Shown here piece by piece: positions 27,127 to 27,998 of a stretch of 64,000 nucleotides of DNA (its first letter is position 1; the number at the start of each line of letters is the position of its first letter). The notes under the pieces are model-generated. The model searched no databases. It was not told where the DNA came from and worked only from the letters and a program-made list of their open reading frames with translations. The position numbers were made by a program, and so were the translations under genes. Source of the stretch: an uncultured Pelagibacteraceae bacterium (GTDB taxonomy: Bacteria > Pseudomonadota > Alphaproteobacteria > Pelagibacterales > Pelagibacteraceae); NCBI GenBank assembly GCA_902562205.1, contig CACESO010000001.1:1-64000 (forward strand), read 5' to 3'.

Positions 27127-27432
27127 ATGATAAAAAAAATATCAATTATAATTCTAATGATGTTGATGTTTCAGGGATGCCAAACAGTCCAAAATAAAAC
27201 AAATAACATAGTTGAAAAAGAGGAAAAATACCTTGAAAAATTTATTAATAAAAAAATTGAAAAAGTCATTCAAGAATTTGGAGAACCAACGCAATATTTA
27301 CCACCAGATCCAGAAAGTGGTGGAGGAAAATTAATATACAATACAAAAAAATTAGGGATTAAATGTGTAAGAACTTTCGAAGTTGATGAGTCAGAGAGAG
27401 TTGTGGGATTTTCATCAAAAGGATGTTTTTGA
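27127..27432 (+). CDS. Small lipoprotein, unknown function
   Basis: A 101-aa protein with a short lysine start, a hydrophobic stretch and the lipobox FQGC at about residues 15-18, so it should be exported and lipid-anchored. The mature part has EKVIQEFGEPTQYLPPDPESGGGKLIYN, which resembles the fold of SmpA/OmlA-like small lipoproteins (a conserved FGxP followed by a beta-rich C-terminus). Two later cysteines (C-terminal half) could form a disulfide. I do not recognise a specific family. Confidence 0.7.
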   Translation: MIKKISIIILMMLMFQGCQTVQNKTNNIVEKEEKYLEKFINKKIEKVIQEFGEPTQYLPPDPESGGGKLIYNTKKLGIKCVRTFEVDESERVVGFSSKGCF

Positions 27433-27455
27433 CTTGTGGGGAAAATCCCCACAAG
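27433..27455. terminator. GC-rich hairpin CTTGTGGGG-AAAAT-CCCCACAAG
   Basis: A perfect 9-bp stem with a 5-base loop lies between the convergent lipoprotein and hsp20 genes. It is one of the most GC-rich stems in the window and fits a shared transcript end. Neither side has a U-tract, so it may act as an RNA-stabilising end structure rather than a classic terminator. Confidence 0.55.
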
Positions 27456-27466
27456 CAAGGTAAAAC

Positions 27467-27913
27467 TTATTTAATTTCTATAAGTTTTTTTTTCTTATAA
27501 TCAGGTATTACTCTTTCGCAAGCGATAGTTAACAAACCATCTTTTAACTCGGCTCCAATTACTTTAACATCATCTGCTATTGTAAATGATCTAGCGAATT
27601 GTCTTTGAGATATTCCTTTATGTAAAATCTCTCCGTCCTGATCTTTGTTTTCTGATTTATCTGTCTGTTTTGTTCTCACAGTCAGCATATTGTCTTCAAA
27701 TTCCACCTCTACATCTTTCTTAGTAAAACCGGCTAAAGCAACTTCAATAGAATACTTATCTTTACCTGTTTTTCTAATATTGTAAGGCGGGTAATTTGAT
27801 TGCATACTCATTCCTCCATTACCCAACATATTTTCAAATTGATCAAACATGTCGTCAAAACCAATTGAAAAGGGTCTTAAAGAATTGAATATTGATAGAT
27901 CCTTACTTGTCAT
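27467..27913 (-). CDS. Small heat-shock protein Hsp20 (IbpA-like)
   Basis: An alpha-crystallin-type chaperone. I place the start at the ATG at 27913 (MTSKDLSIFNSL, 148 aa), seven codons inside the track ORF, because AGGAGG lies just upstream of it. Core motifs: YPPYNIRKTGKDKYSIEVALAGFTKKDVEV, the GI motif in KGISQRQFARSF and LKDGLLTIACERVIP near the end. It holds unfolded proteins for refolding. Both a heat-shock-type promoter and a possible RNA thermometer precede it. Confidence 0.93.
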   Translation of the reverse strand: MTSKDLSIFNSLRPFSIGFDDMFDQFENMLGNGGMSMQSNYPPYNIRKTGKDKYSIEVALAGFTKKDVEVEFEDNMLTVRTKQTDKSENKDQDGEILHKGISQRQFARSFTIADDVKVIGAELKDGLLTIACERVIPDYKKKKLIEIK

Positions 27914-27963
27914 ATTATCCTCCTTTGTTAGCAAGAATTATAAAGGTCCCATTAGGCAACCTT
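27914..27963 (-). promoter_or_regulatory. ROSE-like RNA thermometer candidate in hsp20 leader
   Basis: On the minus strand the predicted leader has a 5' stem AAGGT/ACCTT (27943-27963) and then CTTGCT-AACAA-AGGAGG (27919-27935), where the ribosome site AGGAGG pairs with CTTGCT including one G-G mismatch and one U-G pair. A UUGCU anti-Shine-Dalgarno with a G-G mismatch is the hallmark of ROSE thermometers upstream of small heat-shock genes. The leader is shorter than typical ROSE elements. This is predicted by eye. Confidence 0.5.
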
Positions 27964-27968
27964 AACTA

Positions 27969-27998
27969 ATATATGATAACTATTTCTATTTTTTCAAG
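27969..27998 (-). promoter_or_regulatory. Heat-shock (RpoH-type) promoter for hsp20
   Basis: Read on the minus strand, CTTGAAA (27998-27992) is followed by 15 bp and TCATATAT (27976-27969). This fits the sigma-32 pattern CTTGAAA plus a C/T-rich -10 ending in TAT. The predicted start would fall near 27962, giving a leader of about 50 bases. The groES upstream region has the same arrangement. Confidence 0.55.

Follow-up and report, generated by a model that had tools for sequence, protein, structure and literature searches.

How is translation of the hsp20 gene controlled in a SAR11 bacterium, and does the short leader in front of the gene sense temperature? SAR11 bacteria, which rank with the most abundant cells of the ocean, possess few transcriptional regulators, and RNA control of the only small heat-shock gene detected in such a genome therefore bears on their response to warming. 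The window considered here, by which we mean the whole stretch of 64,000 nt that was analysed, contains an hsp20 gene for which the original prediction had proposed a ROSE-like RNA thermometer.

The hsp20 gene, its leader and its promoter

The hsp20 gene (27467..27913, minus strand) encodes an IbpA-like small heat-shock protein of 148 aa, which matches PF00011 with 67.4 bits (E 1.3e-18) and scores below the NCBIfam IbpA cut-off. It is the sole HSP20 match detected in the genome, the assembly of which is about 89% complete. The leader (27963-27911, minus strand) reads AAGGTTGCCTAATGGGACCTT-TATAATT-CTTGCT-AACAA-AGGAGG-ATAAT-ATG, with the start of hsp20 at 27913, and the letters given for its downstream part in the original prediction, from CTTGCT to ATG on the minus strand, match the sequence exactly. 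For comparison, hsp20 leaders were gathered from the genus and the family, and 139 Pelagibacteraceae leaders were examined; the relatives found by way of hsp20 are members of the Pelagibacteraceae, i.e. SAR11.

Upstream of the leader lies a predicted RpoH (sigma-32)-type promoter (27971..27998, minus strand), in which CTTGAA (27998-27993) is separated by 16 nt from TCATAT (27976-27971). A YTTGAA box is present in 129 of 137 leaders, and in 120 of these 129 a CCATAT-like -10 box follows it after a spacing of 16. Since the end of the -10 box is most often found 14 nt before the bulged G of hairpin I (described below), the transcript is predicted to start at the base of this hairpin and hence upstream of CUUGCU. 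The genome moreover contains rpoH (TIGR02392, 356.6 bits), and the leader would, as far as can be told from its sequence, share with the ROSE class the promoter for a heat-shock sigma factor.

Two conserved hairpins

The first hairpin (27943..27963, minus strand) has the form AAGGUU-G(bulge)-CC-UAAU-GG-GACCUU. RNAalifold, given no structure, predicts it, and in an alignment of 57 diverse leaders (alignment A1) compensatory changes are found in 8 of its 9 pairs. Its covariation amounts to 53 cells as compared to 13.2 in shuffled alignments, and none of 500 shuffles reaches this value. The second stem AAGGT/ACCTT that had been proposed for the 5' end of the leader is therefore real but was described as too short, as it actually comprises 8-9 pairs, a UAAU loop and a bulged G. 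This unpaired G stands after (A/U)(U/C) in A1, and it does so in the consensus of Rfam ROSE_3 as well. We further observe that hairpin I (UUGCC..GGGA) resembles hairpin II (UUGCU..AGGA) and that a bulged G occurs in both, in SAR11 (window 27911-27963) as well as in Rfam ROSE_3, a likeness that perhaps goes back to an old duplication or reflects a shared tertiary motif.

Hairpin II is made up of the anti-Shine-Dalgarno CUUGCU as its 5' arm (27930..27935, minus strand), which corresponds to the ROSE motif U(U/C)GCU, and of the Shine-Dalgarno sequence AGGAGG as its 3' arm (27919..27924, minus strand). The motif is found in 139 of 139 leaders, as CUUGCU in 136 and as CUCGCU in 3, and is followed by (A)GGAG 5-10 nt later; these are exactly both forms of the ROSE signature. 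The original prediction was to fall if the CUUGCU/AGGAGG pairing proved unconserved among close relatives, and this is clearly not the case. What does not hold is the register with a G-G mismatch that it had assumed. Pairing with AGGAG in the order C-G, U-A, U-G, G bulged, C-G, U-A accounts for 97.2% of the cells as opposed to 94.4% in the G-G mismatch register, both figures being slightly low because MAFFT misaligned a few rows of the leader alignment, and the three CUCGCU leaders retain every pair in the bulged-G register only. The G-G mismatch register was rejected on these grounds. The G of U(U/C)GCU is invariant in A1 and remains unpaired in the best register, in which the pairing of AGGAGG is kept. 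Double changes in the Shine-Dalgarno helix are absent among the A1 leaders, as is to be expected where one arm is the ribosome site, and the covariation for which the original prediction had called thus cannot prove this helix, the conservation of which is seen in the maintained pairing instead. The energy of hairpin II at 37 C averages -2.8 kcal/mol in SAR11 as compared to -2.6 kcal/mol for a ROSE_3 member.

In a second family of the order (L098-L107, L326-L329) the hsp20 leaders have the form UAAUCGCUUAAGGAGGAUUA, in which the ROSE motif and the ribosome site are fused into a compact, almost loopless hairpin. An upstream hairpin such as GCCUAGCUUUAUAAGUAGGC is found in these leaders, and it contains a bulged G there too.

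Relationship to the ROSE elements

The model R1, a covariance model built solely from SAR11 leaders, scores 65.2 bits at the window site, the next best place in this genome reaching 16.9 bits. Over 190 alphaproteobacterial genomes R1 yields matches with E values of 1.2e-8, 2.6e-8 and 4.8e-8 in three genomes from two other families. Every match outside the family at E<1e-7 lies directly 5' of hsp20, and weaker matches (E 0.005 to 0.23) are located 5' of hsp20 in three more alphaproteobacterial families. Among 299 Pseudomonadota genomes four matches have E <= 0.1, one of which is a Pseudomonas-type leader of an hsp20 gene (L273, E 0.014), a leader that is ROSE_3 by Rfam (67.1 bits); the other three are not beside hsp20 and were treated as chance.

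In the reverse direction, Rfam ROSE_3 (RF02523) matches the SAR11 leaders over its full length and in place, with 18.8 bits at the window and 19.7-28.3 bits in relatives, and it also matches one intermediate alphaproteobacterial leader. Out of 4227 Rfam families, only ROSE_3 and ROSE_2 match SAR11 leaders repeatedly at the right place. The Infernal search that had been suggested as a check thus returned the expected element, but at scores short of the ROSE_3 gathering score of 43 bits, and we therefore assign the leader to the broader ROSE class rather than to RF02523. Neither RF00435 nor RF01832 gives a gathering-level match in the window; ROSE_2 (RF01832) aligns weakly, over its full length, with the leader of one relative, L088, at 22.8 bits (cut-off 65). 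The SAR11 hsp20 leader element is not in Rfam. As to the searches themselves, the weak ROSE matches were removed by the filters of cmscan when loci of 3 kb were scanned and reappeared with short loci. A filtered ROSE_3 scan of the genome missed the window site and produced chance matches in each of 14 control genomes, and no argument is based on it.

The motif U(U/C)GCU is present within the last 45 nt of 26 of 29 alphaproteobacterial hsp20 leaders (L276-L304), as compared to 1.4 expected; these 29 belong to the best protein matches across the class, and among those without the motif there are a few wrongly called starts. In many of the same genes the AUG is followed by CGNA (ATGCGNA), which hints at a further constraint on the start region.

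The ROSE-like identity proposed for the leader is thus upheld by reciprocal model matches, a family-wide motif and a covarying hairpin I. Judged by sequence, the leader possesses features of the broad class, namely its position in front of a small heat-shock gene, an unpaired G opposite the Shine-Dalgarno sequence, and two hairpins with the Shine-Dalgarno sequence in the 3' one, and the SAR11 element is most simply regarded as an inherited, short form of ROSE. It had been described as a minimal version in a streamlined genome; two hairpins it does have, yet the form is not peculiar to such genomes, since two-hairpin ROSE elements are proven thermometers in Pseudomonas (PMC3669281).

Complementarity between the start and the end of hsp20

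A feature that the original prediction missed is the conserved match between the start of hsp20 and its 3' end. Codons 2-5, ACAAGUAAGG (27901..27910, minus strand), which are frozen at synonymous sites and are complementary to the anti-Shine-Dalgarno too, are complementary over 10 nt to a 3' element, CCUUGCUUGU (27451..27460, minus strand), just past the stop codon. This 3' element overlaps a 3' hairpin, CUUGUGGGG-AUUUU-CCCCACAAG (27433..27455, minus strand), the only copy of which in the genome is found here and for which relatives show compensatory GCGGAG/CUCCGC variants. The 3' hairpin is GC-rich and is situated between hsp20 and a convergent 101-aa lipoprotein-like ORF (27127-27432) that has no Pfam match. 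It has no T-run in the window and is terminator-like in distant genera.

We consider it an even chance that the start of the coding sequence indeed pairs with the 3' element, be it as a latch in cis or in autoregulation by a 3'-derived sRNA, and so provides a second lock besides the ROSE hairpin. This reading supplements the ROSE thermometer and does not replace it. In its favour, the match is kept in 163 of 163 close relatives, including variants that preserve the pairing, and in distant genera both sides differ yet still match, mostly over 8-13 bp, as in the pairs CUUUAUCUAUA with UAUAGAUAGAG, CUUUCUAUA with UAUAGAAAG and CCUAUCUAUCU with AGAUGGGUAGG. When the 3' ends are permuted among 17 lineages the sum of helix lengths drops from 170 to 133.6 (sd 7.3), and none of 20,000 permutations reaches the observed value (P < 5e-5); for the ten distant lineages alone the sum is 102 as opposed to 88.9 in permutations (P 0.0012), both P values ignoring shared ancestry. 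Moreover, three pairs carry changes on both sides among 18 distinct distant sequences, and 0 of 500 shuffles attain the observed score. By energy, hsp20 ranks first among the 59 ORFs of the window (-14.3 kcal/mol, mean -5.5, sd 2.9). Helix length by itself is not significant among these ORFs, as 7 of the 59 reach at least 10 and such lengths are common in AT-rich ORFs, and the case was for this reason built on energy, permutation and covariation.

Other observations weigh against a second lock. In the genome L360 complementarity extends over no more than about 6 bp, and the codons of a distant clade are not unusually frozen. Folding of the full mRNA favours the cis helix in L002, L010 and L352 but not in L056, L357 and L368, because the 3' hairpin competes; as a general fold of the full mRNA the cis helix was accordingly rejected, being supported in part of the lineages only. 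In full-length folding of the window mRNA the 3' element is predicted to return the anti-Shine-Dalgarno to the ribosome site, the probability of the Shine-Dalgarno sequence being unpaired amounting to about 0.3 with the element and to 0.45-0.72 without it.

What, then, might the match do? It may serve as a latch in cis, a 3'-derived RNA may act through it in trans (cf. PMC7398697), or it may play a part in RNase action or stability (cf. PMC3868564). We tentatively entertain the possibility, which we would put short of probable, that the hsp20 mRNA combines a ROSE thermometer with a long-range lock, formed in cis or by a 3'-derived RNA, that in the main clade this lock keeps the first codons from the anti-Shine-Dalgarno, and that both act together.

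Frozen start codons

In 136 distinct hsp20 genes codons 2-4 are ACA AGT AAG in 100%, even though in those genes AGT makes up 11% of the Ser codons and AAG 20% of the Lys codons. Codon 5 is GAT at 89% and codon 6 is CTA at 90%, although CTA accounts for only 9% of the Leu codons. No comparable codon freezing is seen in the neighbouring permease gene in the same 40 genomes. The conserved CTA at codon 6 lies outside the 10-nt helix and is not explained by it (window 27910-27893, minus strand).

But could the frozen codons serve the anti-Shine-Dalgarno rather than the 3' end? The bases AAGUAAGG are able to pair with the anti-Shine-Dalgarno over 7-9 bp, and CUUGCU might form a bistable switch with two alternative partners, the ribosome site and codons 3-5 (AGUAAGG), such that warming shifts it onto the coding sequence. 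The freezing of codons 2-4 at synonymous sites would fit such a switch, as would the capacity for 7 bp with codons 2-6 in 113 of 139 leaders and for 9 bp in 8. Furthermore, in models that include at least 30 nt of coding sequence heating lowers anti-Shine-Dalgarno/Shine-Dalgarno pairing and raises pairing of the anti-Shine-Dalgarno with the codons, and recoding of codons 2-6 leads to lower exposure of the Shine-Dalgarno sequence. However, 4% of shuffled codons reach 7 bp or more, and with 10 bp the 3' element is a better partner for the frozen codons. The codon complement is lacking (3-6 bp) in distant genera and in the order's second family, even though CUUGCU or CUCGCU is retained there together with AGGAG, and the CUCGCU lineages show no matching codon change. 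Pairing with codons 3-5 is therefore rejected as a general arrangement and as the sole cause of CUUGCU conservation, since it is absent in distant genera, and we regard a bistable switch as unlikely.

Probable temperature sensing

We conclude that the hsp20 leader is very probably a two-hairpin RNA thermometer of the ROSE type. In the mechanism that we propose, RpoH would transcribe the hsp20 mRNA from the base of hairpin I, as its promoter suggests, and hairpin I, the fold of which is given by covariation, would by analogy be a stable and temperature-insensitive structure. In hairpin II U(U/C)GCU would pair with the ribosome site, as indicated by conservation, and leave its G unpaired, which would make for a weak helix that presumably hides the ribosome site in the cold. 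By analogy with ROSE elements tested in other bacteria, warming would melt the SAR11 leader at hairpin II and allow the ribosome to enter.

Folding of the leader across temperatures, which the original prediction had put forward as a check, turned out to be uninformative. ViennaRNA predicts no sharp melting for the SAR11 leader, and for the leader alone the computed Shine-Dalgarno pairing is almost constant between 5 and 45 C, but the profile of a ROSE_3 member is equally flat, so that melting curves cannot decide the matter. With 15 nt of coding sequence included, the predicted partner of the anti-Shine-Dalgarno becomes codons 3-5 and no longer the Shine-Dalgarno sequence, which counts against a thermometer.

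The near constancy of computed pairing would also be in line with a conserved fold by which hsp20 translation is reduced or adjusted, for instance through mRNA stabilisation or protein binding, but which does not sense temperature. We consider this quite improbable in view of the reciprocal-model homology to ROSE, the ROSE-specific U(U/C)GCU with its unpaired G and the association of the element with hsp20 only, the flat profile of the ROSE_3 member again speaking against it. Finally, the notion that CTTGCT is coding and that an in-frame TTG (27934), open in the window and giving a product of 155 aa, starts a longer Hsp20 can be dismissed as next to impossible, for no more than 43 of 139 relatives have this TTG in frame, 4 of those 43 contain a stop, and the spacing varies freely.

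Comparison with known regulatory RNAs

More than 40 ROSE elements had been predicted in alpha- and gammaproteobacteria in 2005 (as reported in PMC4166951). The closest counterpart of the SAR11 leader is ROSE_3 (Pseudomonas ibpA, PMC3669281), with which it shares two hairpins, a small heat-shock gene, a sigma-32-type promoter and a similar hairpin II energy, bulged Gs at the same places, and the arrangement of a hairpin I (UGCC..GGGU in ROSE_3) followed by a hairpin II formed by U(U/C)GCU and the Shine-Dalgarno sequence. It differs from ROSE_3 in its AT-rich stems, its shorter length (about 50 nt), a Shine-Dalgarno core devoid of flanking G-C clamps and a score below the Rfam cut-off; in turn, complementarity of the coding start and the 3' end is undescribed for ROSE_3. 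Like rhizobial ROSE (RF00435), the SAR11 element precedes an alphaproteobacterial hsp gene and has U(U/C)GCU with a conserved unpaired G opposite the Shine-Dalgarno sequence, but it contains a single upstream hairpin, whereas rhizobial ROSE has three to four hairpins. As compared to ROSE_2, the E. coli ibpA type, it likewise has fewer hairpins, its one weak match being far below the cut-off. Since two-hairpin ROSE elements are already known, the SAR11 leader extends the ROSE kind and does not constitute a novel kind. As it is found throughout the family, the element is a ready test object.

With regard to SAR11 itself, the main text of a study of structured RNAs in P. ubique (PMC2704228) mentions neither a thermometer nor heat shock. 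For the SAR11 strain HIMB5 another study (PMC6429828) speaks of a single 'possible RNA thermometer', which is unnamed in its main text and may be the hsp20 leader.

A conserved match of this kind between the two ends of the gene is unreported for any known thermometer, and the literature searched contained no ROSE element in which the coding start has a partner at the 3' end. Its nearest parallel is icaR of Staphylococcus aureus (PMC3868564), in which the 3' end of the mRNA pairs with its own translation start region, and hsp20 resembles icaR in the conserved complementarity of initiation region and 3' end. In icaR, however, the Shine-Dalgarno sequence is paired by UCCCCUG, whereas in SAR11 the complementary stretch is formed by codons 2-8, and there is in addition a probable thermometer in the leader. 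The OppZ and CarZ autoregulatory sRNAs of Vibrio (PMC7398697) are derived from 3' sequence complementary to their own transcript and offer a model for a possible trans version, from which the SAR11 case differs in being known here from sequence and not from a processed sRNA. The conserved match suggests that thermometers can be coupled to the distal end of the mRNA in which they reside. A complementarity of 8 nt at this very position is likewise seen in another alphaproteobacterial family (L242, G593), between the hsp20 start codons, CCUAUCCG, and the 3' end of the gene, UGGAUAGG.
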